Assembly (NCBI RefSeq): GCF_000337355.1
Contig: NZ_AOJH01000043.1
Coordinates: 161,910 to 211,894 of the forward strand
Source: Halorubrum kocurii JCM 14978
GTDB lineage: Archaea; Halobacteriota; Halobacteria; Halobacteriales; Haloferacaceae
DNA: 49,985 nucleotides
Direction of reading: 5' to 3'
The first letter of the stretch is position 1. Every line of letters begins with the position of its first letter. The translations under genes were made by a program, and so were the position numbers. The notes under the pieces are model-generated. The model was not told where the DNA came from and made no database searches. It saw nothing but the letters and a program-made list of their open reading frames with translations. Shown piece by piece: positions 7,052 to 49,347 of this stretch.

Positions 7052-8532
7052 CGACCGGGCTGTCGCTCGGGGTCGTCGTCGGCTACCTCCTGTTCGCGCT
7101 CGCGGTCGGACTCGTGGCTTACCGCGTCTCCGAGGCCACCGCGGAGGACTACTACCTCGCGAACCGCTCGATCGGGACTGTCGTGCTGCTGTTCACCACG
7201 TTCGCCACCCTGCTCTCGGCGTTCACCTTCTTCGGCGGCCCAAACCTCGCGTTCGCCGCCGGTCCCGAGTGGCTGATAGTCATGGGGACGCTCGACGGGG
7301 TCCTGTTCGCGGTGCTGTGGTACGCTATCGGGTACAAACAGTGGCTGATCGGCGACCGGCACGGGTACGTCACGCTCGGGGAGATGCTGGGCGACCGGTT
7401 CGGCTCCGTGGGCCTGCGCGCGCTCGTCGCCGGTGTGAGCCTCCTCTGGCTGTTCCCGTACGTCATGCTCCAGCAGATGGGCGCCGGCGAGGCGCTGGTC
7501 GGGCTCACCGACGGCGTCGTCCCCTACTGGGGCGGCGCGGCGCTGGTCACCGCCTTCATGATCCTCTACGTCGTCCTCGCCGGGATGCGAGGCGTCGCCT
7601 GGACAGACACCGTGCAGGGGCTGTTCATGCTCTCCGTCGTCTGGATCGCCGCCGCGTGGGTGGTCTCGGCGGTCGGCGGCGTCGACGCGGCCACCGGCGC
7701 GATGCTCGACGCGCGCCCGGACTTCGGGAGCTTCGGCGGCGGGACCTACACGCCCGGCTTCATCATTTCGACAGCGATCACCATCGCGTTCGGCGTGACG
7801 ATGTTCCCGCAGATCAACCAGCGGTTCTTCGTCGCGAAGTCGGGCGAGACGCTGAAGCGGTCGTTCGTTCTGTGGCCGGTCCTCGTCCTCCTCCTCTTCC
7901 TCCCCGCGTTCATGCTCGGCGCCTGGGCGGCCGGGATGCCCGTCGAGGTGCCCGACGGCGCCAACGTGCTCCCCGTCGTCTTGAACGAGTACACGCCGGC
8001 GTGGTTCGCGGCGCTCGTGATCGCGGGGGCGATGGCCGCGATGATGTCCTCCTCGGACTCGATGCTGCTCTCCGGGTCGTCGTACTTCACCCGCGACGTG
8101 TACCGCCCCGTGGTCAACGCCGACGCCTCCGAGCGCCGCGAGGCGTGGATCGCCCGGATCGGCGTCGCCGTCTTCGCCCTGCTCGCGTTCGTCGCGAGCC
8201 TCTTCCGCCCCGGGACGCTGATCGAGGTCGGCGACACGGCCTTCTCCGGGTTCGCGCTGCTCGCGCTCCCCGTGATCTGCGCGCTCTACTGGGACCGGAC
8301 CACGCGGTCCGGCATGATCGCCGGCGTGCTCGTCCCGCAGGTCGCGTACCTCGCGGTGGTGCTGTCGGCGGTCGTCGGCGCCGTGCCGACCCTACCCCGC
8401 ACCGTCGCCGGCGGCTGGGACGTGGCGCTCGGGCTGATGGTGCTGTCGGCGCTGCTCACCGTGGGCGTCTCGCTCGTCACCGCGCCGACCGCCGACAGCG
8501 ACGCCTCGCGGTTCGCGGTCACCGGCGACTGA
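7048..8532 (+). CDS. Sodium:solute symporter family protein
   Basis: A 494-residue polytopic transporter of the SSF family, with about 13 hydrophobic segments by inspection. It shows the family features EATAEDYYLANRSIG near the N-terminus, a GPNLAFAAGPEWL segment in the second-third helix region, and the TM8-region AAMMSSSDSMLLSGSSYFTRDVY, which carries the Ser residues that line the Na2 sodium site in SSF transporters. The substrate cannot be assigned; relatives paired with DUF3311 proteins are often annotated as pantothenate- or acetate/proline-type permeases. GTG start overlapping the upstream stop. Confidence 0.9.
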   Translation: MTTGLSLGVVVGYLLFALAVGLVAYRVSEATAEDYYLANRSIGTVVLLFTTFATLLSAFTFFGGPNLAFAAGPEWLIVMGTLDGVLFAVLWYAIGYKQWLIGDRHGYVTLGEMLGDRFGSVGLRALVAGVSLLWLFPYVMLQQMGAGEALVGLTDGVVPYWGGAALVTAFMILYVVLAGMRGVAWTDTVQGLFMLSVVWIAAAWVVSAVGGVDAATGAMLDARPDFGSFGGGTYTPGFIISTAITIAFGVTMFPQINQRFFVAKSGETLKRSFVLWPVLVLLLFLPAFMLGAWAAGMPVEVPDGANVLPVVLNEYTPAWFAALVIAGAMAAMMSSSDSMLLSGSSYFTRDVYRPVVNADASERREAWIARIGVAVFALLAFVASLFRPGTLIEVGDTAFSGFALLALPVICALYWDRTTRSGMIAGVLVPQVAYLAVVLSAVVGAVPTLPRTVAGGWDVALGLMVLSALLTVGVSLVTAPTADSDASRFAVTGD

Positions 8533-41456: not shown

Positions 41457-42578
41457 ATGGGAACAACTGAATCGTCGATCGTCGACTCGGCGCGGGCCCG
41501 GCCGGGGCTTCTCCTCGTCGTCCTCCTCGGCGGCCTCCTGCTCGTCGACCTCGCAGCGAAGCTCGCCGGGCTCTCTCTCGGTCCGCTCGGCGGGTCGGTC
41601 TCGGTCGATCGGCTCGGCTCGAACCTCTGGAACGGGGTCATCATCGGACTCGTCGTCGGGCTCGCCGGAATCGGGCTCTCGATGACGTACAGCATCCTCT
41701 CGTTCGCGAACTTCTCGCACGGCGACCTGCTCAGCACCGGCGCGTTCACCGGCTGGGGCGTCGCGTTCCTGATCGCCGGGTTCGGCGACATCCCGGTCCG
41801 GACGCTGTTGTCCGTCCGCGACGCCGGGAGCGCGAGCGCGGGCGACATCGGGGCGCACATCGTCTCCACGCCGATCGCGATCCTCGTCGGCCTGCTCGCG
41901 GCGTTCGCGATCACCGCCGTCGTGGCGCTGGCGCTCGACCGCGCGTTCTACAAGCCGATGCGAGACCGGGACGGGATCTCGATCCTCATCGCGTCGATCG
42001 GCGCCGCGCTGATCGTCCGGTACGTGATCCAGTTCGTCTACGGCTCCGACCGGCGCGGCGTCACGGCGAGCGTCGACGCCTCGAATCTGGCGTTCGGCCC
42101 GCTCGGGCTCTCCGTCAACGCCCATGAGTTGACTATCGTCGTCGCCGCGGCCGGACTCATGCTCGCGATGCACTTCATGCTCCAGCGCACGAAGCTCGGC
42201 ACCGCGATGCGGGCGATGGCCGACAACAAGGACCTCGCGCTCGTCACCGGCATCCCGGCCGAGCGCGTCGTCACCGCGACGTGGATCATCGGCGGCGGAC
42301 TGGCGGGCGCCTCCGGGTATCTCTACGTGTTGCTCCGGGGGACGATCCAGTTCGACTTCGGCTGGCTGCTGTTGCTCCTGATCTTCGCGGCCGTGATCCT
42401 CGGCGGGATCGGCTCGGTGTACGGCGCGATCGCCGGCGGGCTCGTCATCGGGATCGTCTTCACCACCTCGACTATCTGGATCCCCTCCGACTTCAACGAG
42501 GCCGCCGCCTTCGCGGTGATGATCACCATGCTCCTCCTGCGGCCGGAGGGACTCTTCGGAGGTGTTTCGACCGCATGA
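41457..42578 (+). CDS. livH: Branched-chain amino acid ABC transporter permease LivH
   Basis: A 373-residue permease. Hydrophobic helices and the LivH blocks are visible: GLVVGLAGIGLSMTYSILSFANFSHGD near residue 60-90, TKLGTAMRAMADNKDLALVTGIPAERVV (the EAA-like coupling loop), and GGIGSVYGAIAGGLVIGI near the C-terminus. It forms the membrane channel with LivM, powered by LivG and LivF. It opens a four-gene chain in which each gene overlaps the next; livM starts 4 nt before its end (ATGA). Confidence 0.93.
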   Translation: MGTTESSIVDSARARPGLLLVVLLGGLLLVDLAAKLAGLSLGPLGGSVSVDRLGSNLWNGVIIGLVVGLAGIGLSMTYSILSFANFSHGDLLSTGAFTGWGVAFLIAGFGDIPVRTLLSVRDAGSASAGDIGAHIVSTPIAILVGLLAAFAITAVVALALDRAFYKPMRDRDGISILIASIGAALIVRYVIQFVYGSDRRGVTASVDASNLAFGPLGLSVNAHELTIVVAAAGLMLAMHFMLQRTKLGTAMRAMADNKDLALVTGIPAERVVTATWIIGGGLAGASGYLYVLLRGTIQFDFGWLLLLLIFAAVILGGIGSVYGAIAGGLVIGIVFTTSTIWIPSDFNEAAAFAVMITMLLLRPEGLFGGVSTA

Positions 42579-43900
42579 GCGACGACTCAGCGCGTCCCTC
42601 CGAGACGGAGGCGCCGGAGAGCGCAACGGCCGCCGTGATCGACGCCGCGCGCCGCAGCGACCTCGGGCTTATCCTCGGGACGCTGCTCGCGGTCTACCTC
42701 GTCGCGGCGCTGCTCACGTTCACCGACGGCCTCAACAGCGTCGTCGGGCTGATGCGGACGCTGACGTTCCTCGGACTCGTGTACGCGCTCGCCGCGCTCG
42801 CGCTGAACCTCCAGTGGGGCTACGCCGGGCTGTTCAACATCGGCGTGGCCGGGTTCATGGCGCTGGGCGTCTACACGATGGGGATCGTCGTTCGGTCTCC
42901 CGATCCGGCGTTCGGCCCGCCCGGATTCGGGCTCCCGCTCCCGGTCGGCATCCTCGCCGGCATGCTGGTGGCCGCGGTCGTCGGCCTGCTCGCCGCGCTC
43001 CCGGCGCTCCGGCTCAAGGCCGACTACCTCGCGATCGTCACCCTCGGCATCTCGGAGATCATCCGGCTGTTTCTCCAGTCGAGCGCGTTCGACACGTACC
43101 TCCGGGACACGCTCGGCGTCGGTACGGGCGGCGGCAGCGGCATGGGGATGCCGCGGAACCCGGTCCGCGAGCTGTTCCTCGTCGACGGGCAGGCCAACAC
43201 GCCGACGGCCCTCGGGGACTTCGCCTTCGGGACCTTCGGGGAGAGCGGGCTCGGAATCTCCAACACGATCCTCATCGACTGGGCGTACATCGCCGTGCTC
43301 GCCGGCGTCGTGATCGCCTTCTTCGTCCTGCTCGAACGGCTCGGCCGGTCGCCGTTCGGTCGGACGCTCAAGGCGATCCGCGAAGACGAGCTCGTCGCCG
43401 ACTCGCTCGGGAAGAACGTCGACCTGATCAAGATCAAGGTGTTCGTCATCGGCTGCGCGCTGATGGGGCTCGCCGGGATCCTCTGGTTCGGCAGCCAGGG
43501 CAACGTCTCGCCGACGCCGCAGTTCATGCCCGTCCTGACGTTCTACGTCTTCATCGCCGTCATCATCGGCGGGTCCGGGTCGAACGCGGGCGCGGTCCTC
43601 GGCGGCATCGTCTTCGCGACGGTGCTGTTCGAGGGGCCGCGCCGCGTCGGGGCGTCGCTGCGCGACGTCATCGACGCCGAGACGCCGCCGTCGTTCGCCG
43701 ACGCGGTCGCCACGCTCGACCCGACCGCGTTCCTCGCGTTCGCGACCGACAACATCGCGCCGCTGCAGTTCGTCTTCCTCGGACTCATCCTGGTGTTCAT
43801 CATGCACCGACGGCCCGACGGCATCCTCGGCGACCGGATCGAGACGGCCGCGGCCGTCGACCTCTCGGAGCGCCCCAGCGGGGGTGAGACCGATGAGTAG
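42575..43900 (+). CDS. livM: Branched-chain amino acid ABC transporter permease LivM
   Basis: A 441-residue permease with an acidic N-terminal tail of about 25 residues, then around ten helices. Typical LivM sequence is visible: ALNLQWGYAGLFNIGVAGFMALGVYT, LKADYLAIVTLGISEIIRLFLQ, and RSPFGRTLKAIREDELVADSLGKNVDLIKIKVFVIGC (coupling loop). Start at 42575 is the ATG overlapping the livH stop; the longer frame upstream lies inside livH. Confidence 0.92.
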   Translation: MSDDSARPSETEAPESATAAVIDAARRSDLGLILGTLLAVYLVAALLTFTDGLNSVVGLMRTLTFLGLVYALAALALNLQWGYAGLFNIGVAGFMALGVYTMGIVVRSPDPAFGPPGFGLPLPVGILAGMLVAAVVGLLAALPALRLKADYLAIVTLGISEIIRLFLQSSAFDTYLRDTLGVGTGGGSGMGMPRNPVRELFLVDGQANTPTALGDFAFGTFGESGLGISNTILIDWAYIAVLAGVVIAFFVLLERLGRSPFGRTLKAIREDELVADSLGKNVDLIKIKVFVIGCALMGLAGILWFGSQGNVSPTPQFMPVLTFYVFIAVIIGGSGSNAGAVLGGIVFATVLFEGPRRVGASLRDVIDAETPPSFADAVATLDPTAFLAFATDNIAPLQFVFLGLILVFIMHRRPDGILGDRIETAAAVDLSERPSGGETDE

Positions 43901-44786
43901 CGACATTCCGGACGCGTCCGACGTCGCCGAGGCGGCGGACTCGGCCGACGCGATCACCGACGAGCCCGAGGCGAACGACAGCGCCGTCGAGGAGGCGGCC
44001 AAGCACGTCCCGTCCGGGGCGCCGCCGCTCCGGGTCGAGGGGCTCGTCAAGCGCTTCGGCGGCGTCACCGCCGTCGACGGCGCCTCCTTCGAGGTCGAGG
44101 AAGGGTCGCTGACGGGGCTGATCGGTCCCAACGGCGCCGGCAAGTCGACCACGTTCAACTGCATCACCGGCGTCCACGAGCCGGCGGCCGGGTCCGTCTA
44201 CTTCAAGGGCGAGGACGTCACCGGGCTCGAACCGTTCCGGATGGCGCGGAAGGGGCTCGTGCGGACCTTCCAGATCGCCCGCGAGTTGGAGGAGATGACC
44301 GTCTTGGAGAACCTGATGCTCGCGCCGAAGGGGCAGATCGGCGAGTCAGCGATCCGAGCGGTCACGCCCGGGCTCCGGGGCGAGGTCGTCGAACAGGAGG
44401 AGGCGATCCGCGAGCGCGCGTGGGAGACGCTCGACTTCTTCGAGATCGACCACCTCGCGACCGAACACGCCGGGAACCTCTCCGGAGGGCAGCGGAAGCT
44501 CCTCGAGATGGCCCGCGCGCTCATGACCGACCCGGAGGTGGTGTTGCTCGACGAACCGCTCGCGGGGGTCAACCCCACCCTAGAGGAGAAGCTCCTCGAC
44601 CGGATCCACCAGCTGCGCGGGGACGGCTACACGTTCCTCCTCGTCGAACACGACATGGACGTCATCATGAACAACTGCGAACACGTCATCGTCATGCACC
44701 AGGGCAGCGTTCTCGCCGAGGGGACCGGCGACGAGATACGGAACAACGAGCAGGTCATCGAGGCGTACCTGGGTGAGGACATATGA
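43893..44786 (+). CDS. livG: Branched-chain amino acid ABC transporter ATPase LivG
   Basis: A 297-residue ATPase. Walker A is GPNGAGKST, the Q loop follows near RTFQIARELEEMTVLENLML, the signature is NLSGGQRKLLEMARAL and Walker B is VVLLDEPLAGVNP. About 45 acidic residues (DVAEAADSADAITDEPEAND) precede the domain. The start at 43893 overlaps the livM stop by 8 nt; GGGGTGAG (43881-43888) could act as a Shine-Dalgarno sequence. Confidence 0.94.
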   Translation: MSSDIPDASDVAEAADSADAITDEPEANDSAVEEAAKHVPSGAPPLRVEGLVKRFGGVTAVDGASFEVEEGSLTGLIGPNGAGKSTTFNCITGVHEPAAGSVYFKGEDVTGLEPFRMARKGLVRTFQIARELEEMTVLENLMLAPKGQIGESAIRAVTPGLRGEVVEQEEAIRERAWETLDFFEIDHLATEHAGNLSGGQRKLLEMARALMTDPEVVLLDEPLAGVNPTLEEKLLDRIHQLRGDGYTFLLVEHDMDVIMNNCEHVIVMHQGSVLAEGTGDEIRNNEQVIEAYLGEDI

Positions 44787-45661
44787 GCGCCGAAGAGGCC
44801 GACTCGACCGACGACGCCGACGGGGAAGCCGTCGGCGTAGAGGAGTCCGCCGAACCCGTCGACGCGGCCGGATCCGCCGACTCCGACGACATGCCCGCCG
44901 ACTCCGACGACACGCCCGCCGCCGCCAACGCGGGAACGAGGCACACGCTCGACGGCGACGCGATCCTCAGGCTGCGCGGCCTCGACGCCGGCTACGGCGA
45001 CCTCCAGATCCTCTCGGACGTCGACCTCGACGTCGCCGACGGGGAGTACGTCACCATCGTCGGTCCGAACGGGGCCGGCAAGTCGACGGTGATGAAGACC
45101 GTCTTCGGGCTCACGACGTACATGGACGGGACCGTCGAGTTCGAGGGCGAGTCGATCCACGGGCTCGCGCCCGAGCAGATCATCCGCGAGGGGATCGGGT
45201 TCGTCCCGCAGAACGACAACGTGTTCCCGGGACTGAGCGTGCGCGAGAACCTCGAGATGGGCGCGTACATCCTCGACAGCGTCCCAGAGGACCAGATCGA
45301 GGAGATCTACGACCGCTTCCCGATCCTCCGGGAACGAGCGGGACAGAAGGCGGGGACGCTCTCCGGCGGCCAGCGGCAGATGGTCGCGATGGGGCGGGCG
45401 CTCATGCTCGACCCCGACCTCCTGTTGCTCGACGAGCCCTCCGCGGGGCTCGCGCCCGACCTCGTCGCCGACATGTTCGACCGTATCGACCGGATCAACG
45501 ACTCGGGGACGGCGGTGCTCATGGTCGAGCAGAACGCCAAGGAGGCGCTGCGGCGCTGCGACCGCGGCTACGTCCTCGTCAACGGCGAGAACCGCTACAC
45601 CGACCGCGGGGAGGTGCTCCTCGGCGACGAGGACGTGCGGAAGGACTTCCTCGGCGGCTAA
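44783..45661 (+). CDS. livF: Branched-chain amino acid ABC transporter ATPase LivF
   Basis: A 292-residue ATPase with Walker A GPNGAGKSTVMKT, the LivF-type GIGFVPQNDNVFPGLSVRENLEMG, signature TLSGGQRQMVAMGRALM and Walker B LLLLDEPSAGLAP. It has an acidic N-terminal extension of about 60 residues containing a duplicated ADSDD..PADSDDTPA stretch. Start overlaps the livG stop (ATGA). The gene ends the livHMGF chain; the binding protein gene livJ lies on the opposite strand beyond a 458-nt intergenic region. Confidence 0.94.
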   Translation: MSAEEADSTDDADGEAVGVEESAEPVDAAGSADSDDMPADSDDTPAAANAGTRHTLDGDAILRLRGLDAGYGDLQILSDVDLDVADGEYVTIVGPNGAGKSTVMKTVFGLTTYMDGTVEFEGESIHGLAPEQIIREGIGFVPQNDNVFPGLSVRENLEMGAYILDSVPEDQIEEIYDRFPILRERAGQKAGTLSGGQRQMVAMGRALMLDPDLLLLDEPSAGLAPDLVADMFDRIDRINDSGTAVLMVEQNAKEALRRCDRGYVLVNGENRYTDRGEVLLGDEDVRKDFLGG

Positions 45662-46119: not shown

Positions 46120-47484
46120 CTACTGGTTCAGGACGCTCGACCACTGGCTGGTGTACGTCGCCTGCGCCGGCTCGAAGGAGACGCGCTCCGTGATCGTGCC
46201 GTCGCTCTCCTCGAAGGCCGCCACGTACTGCTCCTCGAGCGACTGGCCGTAGGCGTCGTTGAGGTACAGCGTCCCCGAGGACTCGGCGCCGACCGTGTCG
46301 CCCCTCGCGAGCTCGGCCATCGCCGGGCCCTGCAGGAGGTCGGAGGGCGCGGTCCGGAAGATGTAGCCGTTGTCGTCGAGGTCGGTCACGTCCGGGCTGG
46401 TCGAGGACGGCGAGATGCCGACGACGCCGTTCGGGATGAACACCTGGTCGGCCACTTGGAGGTTCACGTTCGAGGCGGCCGGGCCGACGACGGCGCCGTA
46501 GCCGGCGTCGACGAGCGAGTTCGCCCCGGAGATACCCGCCTGCGGGTCGGTCTGCGTGTCCTCGACGCGGGTGTCGACCGTGACGCTCAGGCCGGCGTCG
46601 TTGACCTGGGTCGCCGCGAGCAGCGCGCCGTCGCGGATCGGACCGCCGAGCGGACCGAGGTCACCGGTTTCGGGCATCAGCACCCCGACCTTCGCCTCGA
46701 ACTCGTCGACGCCGACGGGGTCGGCCGACGGCGCGTCCAGGTCCTCGTCCGAGAGCTCGTTGCCGAACTCCAAGGTGTCGAGCGTGACGATATCGCCGTC
46801 CTGGAAGTCCTGCACGTCGTACGCCGCGGTGGCGATGTCGCCGTTGACGTCGAAGTTGACGCTCGACGACGCCCCGACGTAGTGGACGGGGTCGCCGGCG
46901 GCGACCGCCTCGACCGCGTCCGGGAGGGTCTCCGGCCCGAACTCGTCCCCGCCGGGGTTCGCGACAGTCCGGACCCGGTCGCGGATGGCCTCTCCCTCGT
47001 TCTCGCCCGCGGCGGTCGCCGCGAGGATCTCGACCGCCATCGCGTCGTACGCCTGCGCCGTGAACACGCCCGGTGCGGTGTCGTACTCCTCCTCGTACAA
47101 GCTGGTGAAGAAGTCCGCGCCCGGGCCGCCCGCGGACGGCGCGGTCCCGATGACGTTGTTCATATCGCTGTCGACCTCGCCGGGGAGGTCGGAGTCGATC
47201 AGCCCGTCGGGCACGACGATGTCGAGGTCGGGCACATCGTCGGCGAAGTCGGAGTAGAAGTCGCGGAACAGCTGGATGCCGGACTCCGGGAAGCCGACGA
47301 CCATCACCGCGTCGGGCGCGCCTTCCCCGTCGCTCCCGTCGTCTCCGTCGGACCCGTCGCTCCCGTCGTCTCCGTCGCTCCCGTCGTCTCCGTCGCCGCT
47401 CTCGGTCGAGCAGCCGGCGAGTGCCGCAATGCCGGCAACTCCGGCGCCTTTGAGTACGTCGCGTCGCTGTATCCTTCGCGTCAT
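46120..47484 (-). CDS. livJ: LivJ-type branched-chain amino acid binding lipoprotein, circularly permuted
   Basis: A 454-residue Tat lipoprotein: R7R8 in RRDVLKG, lipobox LAGC (C25), then a Gly/Asp/Ser linker to residue 56. Start at 47484 fits the TATA box 29 nt upstream. The binding domain is of type I (Peripla_BP_6), but its halves are swapped. Residues 57-241 (PDAVMVVGFPESG to TLDTLEFG) are the part that canonically follows the mid-protein YTSQWSSVL; residues 264-453 (AKVGVLMPETGDLGPLG to TSQWSSVLN) are the canonical mature N-terminus and now come last. A new linker of about 22 residues joins old C-terminus to old N-terminus. Ligand-site segments (GPAASNV, SSTSPDV, NDAYGQS, QAYDAMA) all remain, so it is probably functional. 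Confidence 0.88.
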   Translation of the reverse strand: MTRRIQRRDVLKGAGVAGIAALAGCSTESGDGDDGSDGDDGSDGSDGDDGSDGEGAPDAVMVVGFPESGIQLFRDFYSDFADDVPDLDIVVPDGLIDSDLPGEVDSDMNNVIGTAPSAGGPGADFFTSLYEEEYDTAPGVFTAQAYDAMAVEILAATAAGENEGEAIRDRVRTVANPGGDEFGPETLPDAVEAVAAGDPVHYVGASSSVNFDVNGDIATAAYDVQDFQDGDIVTLDTLEFGNELSDEDLDAPSADPVGVDEFEAKVGVLMPETGDLGPLGGPIRDGALLAATQVNDAGLSVTVDTRVEDTQTDPQAGISGANSLVDAGYGAVVGPAASNVNLQVADQVFIPNGVVGISPSSTSPDVTDLDDNGYIFRTAPSDLLQGPAMAELARGDTVGAESSGTLYLNDAYGQSLEEQYVAAFEESDGTITERVSFEPAQATYTSQWSSVLNQ

Positions 47485-47508: not shown

Positions 47509-47516
47509 GTTTATAA
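47509..47516 (-). promoter_or_regulatory. TATA box for livJ
   Basis: On the minus strand CTTATAAA, centred about 29 nt upstream of the ATG at 47484 and too close to the alternative ATG at 47502. It decides the start. A second A/T-rich box (minus GATATCTATAAC, near 47641-47652) may be an additional promoter. Confidence 0.65.
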
Positions 47517-47718: not shown

Positions 47719-49347
47719 TCAGTACCCCTGTGCGTTTCCGTCCTTTCGCGGCTCGGTCGCCGCCGAAAGGACGCCGTCTCGGGAGCGCGCGATCTGAGCG
47801 CCGCCGAACATGGCCGGCGGGAGGGTCAACACGTCGTGGCCCTTCCGGGCCAGCTTCGCGGCGGTCCCCCCGTCGGCGTGGGGTTCGAGCGCTAGCTCGC
47901 CGCTCTCGCGGTAGCGCCACCGCGGCTCGTCGAGCGCGCGCTGGAGGGGCATCCCGTAGTCGACGAGGTTCGAGACCACCTGCACGTGCCCCTGCGGCTG
48001 CATGTACCCGCCCATCACGCCGAAGGCCGCCCAGTCGTCCTCGTCGAACCGGACGAGCCCGGGGATCAGGGTGTGGAACGGTCGCTTGCCCGGTTCGAGG
48101 CGGTTCGGGTGCTCCGGGTCGAGCGAGAACGACGCGCCGCGGTTCTGGAGGGCGATCCCCGTCTCGCCCGCGACGAGGCCGGAGCCGAACCCGGCGAACC
48201 GCGAGTTGATGTAGGAGACGACGTTGCCCTCCTCGTCCGCGACCGTCAGCAGGACGGTGTCGGCGTCCTCCGCGTTGGCCTCTGGGACGCCGAAGCTCAC
48301 GTCGTGGTTGGCCCTCTCGCCGACCTCGGCCGCCCGCCGCTCCGCCCAGTCCGCGGACGCGAGCGGCGGGACCTCCTCGTAGGCCGGGTCGGTGATGTAG
48401 CGGTGGCCGTCGTGGAAGGCGACTTTCAGCGCCTCCGCGAAGTAGTGGACGCGCTCGGGGGAGTCGTAGTCGTACTCCCCGGCGCCGACCTCCGCCGCGA
48501 CGTTGAGCGCCTCCAGCGCGATGAGCCCCTGGTTGTTCGGCGGGAGTTCGTACACCTCGGCGCCGTTGTACGTCGTCGAGACCGGCTCCGGCCACTCCAC
48601 CTCGAAGCCCGCGAGGTCGTCGACGGTCATGAACCCGCCCGCCGCCTGCACCTCTTCGGCGATTGCCTCGGCGATCTCGCCCTCGTAGACGGCGTCGGCA
48701 CCCCGCTCGGCGATCAGCGTCATCGACTCGCCGAGCCGCGGGAGCGTCACGCGCTGTCCGACCCCGGGCGACTCGCCGCCGAAGAGGTACGCCTCGCGGG
48801 CGTGGTCGCTCTCGAACAGCTCCTCGCCGTGGGTCCACGAGTCCGCGATCACCTCGCTGACCGGATACCCCTCGGTTGCGTACCGGATCGCCGGCCGCAG
48901 GAGCCGGTCGAGGCCAAACTCGCCGAACCGCTCGGCGGTCGCCTCCCACCCGCGTGCGGTCCCCGGGACCGTCACCGTCTGCGCCCCGGTCATCGGCATC
49001 TCGACCTCGCTCGGGTCGTCACCCTCGGCATCGTCGTCAGCCGCGAGCGCCTCCCGGGCGTTCTCAACCGTGGCGTCGGCGGGCGCGCCGCCGCAGGCCC
49101 GCATGGCGCCGACCTCGCCGTCGGCGGTGCGGTACAGCGCGAACACGTCGCCGCCCAGCCCCGTCGAGGTGGGCTCGACGACGTTGAGGGCGGCGGCGGT
49201 CGCCACCGCGGCGTCGAACGCGTTCCCGCCGTCGCGCAACACCTCGATCCCCGCTTGGCTCGCGAGCGGCTGGCTCGTAGCGACTACGCCGCGCTGTCCG
49301 TACACCGTCGACCGCCGGGAGCCGAACCGGTCCACGTCTGGGTCCAT
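47719..49347 (-). CDS. ggt: Gamma-glutamyltransferase
   Basis: A 542-residue Ntn hydrolase that removes or transfers the gamma-glutamyl group of glutathione-like thiols (gamma-glutamylcysteine is the haloarchaeal thiol). VVATSQPLASQAGIEVLRDGGNAFDAAVATAAALNVVEP is the start of the large subunit. The self-cleavage/nucleophile Thr is in DADTVLLTVADEEGN, followed by FGSGLVAGETGIALQNRGASFS and the glycine-rich FGVMGGYMQPQGHVQV. No signal peptide is seen, so it is likely cytoplasmic unless exported by an unrecognised route. It lies upstream of livJ on the same strand, 234 nt apart. Confidence 0.92.
   Translation of the reverse strand: MDPDVDRFGSRRSTVYGQRGVVATSQPLASQAGIEVLRDGGNAFDAAVATAAALNVVEPTSTGLGGDVFALYRTADGEVGAMRACGGAPADATVENAREALAADDDAEGDDPSEVEMPMTGAQTVTVPGTARGWEATAERFGEFGLDRLLRPAIRYATEGYPVSEVIADSWTHGEELFESDHAREAYLFGGESPGVGQRVTLPRLGESMTLIAERGADAVYEGEIAEAIAEEVQAAGGFMTVDDLAGFEVEWPEPVSTTYNGAEVYELPPNNQGLIALEALNVAAEVGAGEYDYDSPERVHYFAEALKVAFHDGHRYITDPAYEEVPPLASADWAERRAAEVGERANHDVSFGVPEANAEDADTVLLTVADEEGNVVSYINSRFAGFGSGLVAGETGIALQNRGASFSLDPEHPNRLEPGKRPFHTLIPGLVRFDEDDWAAFGVMGGYMQPQGHVQVVSNLVDYGMPLQRALDEPRWRYRESGELALEPHADGGTAAKLARKGHDVLTLPPAMFGGAQIARSRDGVLSAATEPRKDGNAQGY

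Follow-up and report, generated by a model that had tools for sequence, protein, structure and literature searches.

The binding-protein gene and its neighbors

The window, by which we mean the entire 49,985-nucleotide stretch of the Halorubrum kocurii JCM 14978 genome analyzed here, contains on its plus strand four livHMGF genes that were assigned from their ORFs and Pfam matches. They encode permeases of the livH type (41457-42578) and the livM type (42575-43900, start approximate), both with a BPD_transp_2 domain, as well as the ATPases LivG (43884-44786; ABC_tran and BCA_ABC_TP_C) and LivF (44783-45661; ABC_tran). In the window as well as in most relatives, this cassette (41457-45661) adjoins the gene of a substrate-binding protein (46120-47484, minus strand). 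The two are not co-directional, with livF lying tail to tail with the binding-protein gene, an arrangement that synteny comparison also found in the relatives. On the 5' side of the binding-protein gene, profile search and synteny identified a gamma-glutamyltranspeptidase gene (ggt, 47719-49347, minus strand), which marks this slot in the genus.

The ORF of the binding protein runs from an ATG at 47484 to the stop codon at 46122-46120 and comprises 454 residues; its Peripla_BP_6 match (Pfam) and its colinear full-length homologues point to a permuted LivJ-type substrate-binding lipoprotein. All of its parts are encoded on the minus strand. The N-terminal segment (47410-47484) holds the Tat signal RRDVLKG and the lipobox LAGC (Cys25), both evident in the sequence, while the Pfam TAT_signal profile scored 19.9 bits, under its cut-off of 22.7. 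An Asp/Ser/Gly tether follows (residues 26-55; 47320-47409). The canonical second domain half (H2; residues 56-242; 46759-47319), delimited by structure and half alignments and by the rotated profile match described below, comes first in the chain. It is followed by a new linker (ELSDEDLDAPSADPVGVDEF; residues 243-262; 46699-46758) that, by sequence comparison, connects the former C-terminus with the former N-terminus. The canonical first domain half (H1; residues 263-453; 46126-46698), delimited by Pfam as well as by structure and half alignments, comes last and finishes with SSVLN, after which only a Q and the stop codon remain. These borders agree to within a few residues with those proposed in an earlier, sequence-only reading of the locus, whose Tat signal, lipobox and intact frame were likewise found.

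A candidate TATA-like element, TTATAAAC, was noticed by eye about 25 nt 5' of the ATG (47509-47516, minus strand). Scans for sigma-70 promoters and terminators at the binding-protein gene returned nothing; the absence of a sigma-70-type site is expected, because the host is an archaeon.

Order of the halves and the tethered lobe

With the chain in its native order, positions 2-186 of the Peripla_BP_6 profile fell on the C-terminal residues 264-451 (103.7-104.4 bits; cut-off 31.7). Rotation of the halves into the usual order yielded one unbroken match from profile position 2 to 311 (123.3 bits), which resembles the continuous match of canonical relatives. Alignment with the solved structure of TM1135 LivK (3td9) paired residues 17-199 of that structure with residues 264-450 of the window protein, and residues 265-328 with residues 117-180, which lie upstream. 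The claim of the sequence-only reading that the two halves are swapped was thus borne out by the Pfam position, the 3td9 alignments and the rotated match, which confirm the order and support the description of the gene product as a naturally circularly permuted LivJ-type (Peripla_BP_6, type I) receptor. The half-only profile annotation of these proteins follows from the permutation of the halves.

Separate alignment of the halves to LivJ homologues, which the earlier reading had suggested, found relatives in canonical order at 46-69% identity per half. The closest of these (58-69% per half) are the proteins of Halorarius litoreus (L056; 69/58% identity to the two window halves) and of genome G034 of the same genus as the window (L089; 65/61%). 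Both are likewise encoded beside livHMGF and are set apart from the window protein by their canonical order. In canonical relatives the two break points are adjacent, one residue apart, and the C-terminus lies at ...FEN.

The canonical-order gene of G034 sits in exactly the slot of the window gene, flanked by lipA-livHMGF and ggt; the order there is ggt, the binding protein and then, on the other strand, livF, livG, livM and livH, followed by lipA. LivM and LivH of G034 share no more than 50% and 64% identity with their window counterparts, next to a ggt and a lipA with 85% and 92%, which suggests an in-place exchange of the whole liv cassette at this locus (L089:6718-8058). Two further arrangements were observed. 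A single livHMGF cassette is accompanied by two different permuted genes in tandem in genomes G342 (L092:6799-9633) and G159 (L138:4377-7192). In genome G029 of the same genus (L090:6076-8874), the permuted binding-protein gene is broken by about 1.4 kb of inserted DNA with a 388-aa transposase-like ORF (7198-8364), to which Pfam gave no name.

In all of the permuted clades distinguished below, the domain starts one residue before PD(A/V/L)...VGFPESG or IGYPESG and stops zero to four residues past ...SSVLN or ...ALS, with a linker of 16-21 residues between the old ends. Mapped onto the canonical model, the break lies between the helix 183-189 and the strand 196-200; in the known LivJ fold this site corresponds to an alpha-to-beta loop of lobe 2 that faces away from the cleft. 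From this position we infer that the lipid-tethered N-terminus leaves lobe 2, as opposed to the first strand of lobe 1 in the canonical protein.

Structure modelling was informative for one of the two orders. The canonical sister was predicted by AlphaFold as a LivK/LivJ fold (pLDDT 83; TM 0.77/0.83 versus 3td9), whereas AlphaFold2 gave a poor model of the permuted protein (pLDDT 48.9, pTM 0.50), probably because just 17 mostly close sequences were used. The fold of the window protein was therefore derived from its homology, which suggests LivJ-like folding and binding.

Distribution and number of origins

Within the genus, about 20 other genomes encode full-length homologues with the halves in the same order at 76-94% identity, and colinear full-length ones at 48-55% identity were present in further genomes of the genus as well as in other families. 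With a count cut-off set beyond the reach of the canonical relatives (their best half about 1e-71), 166 of the 381 sampled Halobacteria genomes (about 44%), representing 32 of the 85 sampled genera, carried a permuted homologue. In the phylum-wide sample, all full-length permuted matches among the matches listed belonged to Halobacteria; among these listed matches, those outside Halobacteria that covered both halves were in canonical order, and no permuted homologue was seen there. The comparison with the closest relatives thus had a double outcome for the sequence-only reading: canonical-order relatives do exist, but the permuted order is widely common and not a recent private event. A private mutation is ruled out by the roughly 20 genomes of the genus and the 32 of 85 genera that share the order, and this distribution indicates that the permuted order is ancient and conserved in Halobacteria.

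The number of origins was addressed with a set of 137 proteins (75 permuted and 62 canonical) from which both halves were cut out, aligned separately and then concatenated in canonical order, so that chain order could not influence the alignment. After thinning at 80% identity the window protein is represented by close relatives; the protein itself was included in an earlier tree. Clade I, to which the window belongs (Halorubrum, Halohasta, Natronomonas and others), was nested among canonical proteins, with the canonical Halorarius L056 as its sister (support 100/98). Clade II, a large group, and two small ones (III and L099) were placed away from clade I. A single permuted group appeared in none of 200 bootstrap trees, and AU tests on the binding protein rejected one clade of all permuted proteins (p 1e-4) as well as clades I and II as one clade (p 0.001).

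The same picture emerged from the LivHMGF proteins, which do not carry the permutation trait themselves. On these alone, one clade comprising all permuted lineages was rejected by the AU test (delta lnL 220, p 1e-41). When long branches were removed from this tree two changes sufficed and clade III was not separable from clade II, with clades I and III as one clade still rejected (p 0.001). Closer examination of the linkers revealed that in clade I they end in ...SF-EAMVGVLMPETGDL, similar to the N-terminus SMSF-EAKVGVLMPETGDL of the canonical sister of this clade and to that of no other canonical protein read, which favors a separate origin. The linkers of clade II end in GR/DR, as do many other canonical N-termini. 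Parsimony therefore supports at least two origins of the permuted lineages, and three or four are possible.

The main rival to repeated origin is a single permutation in the ancestor of the haloarchaeal family with at least four later reversions to canonical order, either by the same duplication and trimming proposed below for the permutation itself or through recombination of a canonical with a permuted copy. All permuted clades share the breakpoint, give or take a few residues, the linkers are loosely similar with a faint AD..PxG flavor common to clades I and II, and tandem permuted pairs such as those of G342 and G159 would be able to revert, all of which speaks for this history. Trees of H1 only and H2 only, which were weakly resolved, disagree on the placement of the Halorarius protein, and this also works in its favor. 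On the other hand, with canonical outgroups it costs one gain and at least four losses compared to two or three gains, and it does not fit the clade I linker end, which is like that of the canonical sister and unlike that of clade II. We consider a single origin followed by reversions unlikely, roughly a one-in-four prospect. The Halorarius L056 protein, the halves of which join different relatives in the separate half trees, may itself be a mosaic from recombination between paralogues.

Repeated origin leaves room for a more specific proposal, namely that Halobacteria acquired the permutation on two to four independent occasions, each time at one and the same residue border, because a tether on the other lobe is advantageous. 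Such an advantage might concern how the receptor docks on LivHM or how it opens and closes in its tethered state. We put this forward tentatively, as it appears to us somewhat less probable than its negation.

Route to the permutation and function of the receptor

The reading that we regard as probable is that of a functional and conserved permuted lipoprotein partner of LivHMGF that arose at least twice at one breakpoint, most likely by tandem duplication. The window lipoprotein would capture the substrate of the adjoining LivHMGF transporter (branched-chain amino acid / HAAT family) as LivJ does. Its chain would begin midway through lobe 2, at a helix/strand border, traverse the canonical second half, pass through the linker of about 20 residues and end with the canonical first half, with a ligand site assembled from unchanged segments. 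The opposite orientation of its gene to livHMGF counts against this reading.

As for the origin of this arrangement, the gene would have been duplicated in tandem and the copies fused, after which the outer halves would have been lost with retention of the signal peptide and tether. Duplication and trimming would preserve both signal peptide and tether as well as a few residues ahead of the first strand, as is observed: the linker before the first strand retains the end of the canonical mature N-terminus. The tandem duplication at the linker suggested by the sequence-only reading is plausible on these grounds. No duplicated or half-trimmed intermediate was present among the haloarchaeal ORFs read, for which reason we treat the duplication step as a hypothesis, and no remnants of second halves were detected downstream of permuted genes, where the two matches obtained correspond to the start of a neighboring tandem gene. 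An ORF of Candidatus Omnitrophota (L071:7484-10045) contains two canonical type I binding domains in tandem. Unrelated to the haloarchaeal proteins, it shows that fusions of the kind needed for permutation by duplication occur.

Fission and fusion, one of the two standard models of circular permutation (PMC3320104), would instead have the halves exist as separate genes that were later joined in opposite order. This route is compatible with the end products, but no lone-half ORF was found among the haloarchaeal ORFs read; the sole H1-only ORF (L070) comes from archaea of a different group and is cut short by the end of its contig. In addition, the signal peptide, tether and residues before the first strand stay with their canonical partners, which duplication explains directly. 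We therefore rate fission and fusion as improbable, even below the history of one origin with reversions.

A rearranged gene that is non-functional would account for the low confidence of the permuted model and for the G029 copy broken by an insertion. Such a gene is very hard to reconcile with intact copies in dozens of species, with dN/dS values of 0.15-0.33, indicative of purifying selection on the permuted genes, and with family motifs that are conserved in both orders and present in both halves. An error of assembly or reading is refuted by more than 100 independent assemblies that show the identical order, several being single-contig chromosomes.

Relation to known receptors

Both halves of the window protein belong to the family of LivJ/LivK (PF13458 Peripla_BP_6, type I / cluster B; 3td9, 4n0q, 1usg and 1z15), with which it shares conserved motifs, an export signal and adjoining LivHMGF genes. 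It differs from them by its swapped halves, the predicted tether on lobe 2 and the extra linker of about 20 residues on the old termini.

The sequence-only reading had considered natural circular permutation to be new for a LivJ-type receptor. This held for the family, as no report of a permuted LivJ-type or haloarchaeal permuted binding protein was found in the open-access literature, but not for the phenomenon, for which there is a precedent with another breakpoint. TpMglB-2 (Tp0684) of Treponema pallidum is a naturally permuted glucose-binding type I lipoprotein for which a class Type Ic was proposed (PMC4990184). Its first three N lobe strands have moved to the C-terminus, while the order of the C lobe is unchanged, and the permutation was regarded by its authors as possibly an adaptation to tethering (PMC4990184). 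TpMglB-2 and the window protein have in common the natural permutation of a type I binding lipoprotein and an added connection between the old termini. They differ in sequence family, lineage and likely ligand, TpMglB-2 being of a sugar family and Type Ic being characterized by sugar binding with an EF-type Ca site. The window protein breaks in lobe 2, with about 190 residues (the whole first half, part of lobe 2 included) moved, whereas TpMglB-2 breaks in the N lobe. The haloarchaeal proteins therefore lie outside Type Ic but represent the same kind of thing.

The apparent recurrence would place these receptors among the rare cases in which circular permutation has occurred repeatedly at one site, and repeated permutation in tethered haloarchaeal receptors would provide an independent case for the idea of an adaptation to tethering. 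Permuted receptors can be paired with matching canonical ones, in one instance from the same slot of one genus, which allows a direct test of chain order and anchoring lobe in a Venus-flytrap receptor.
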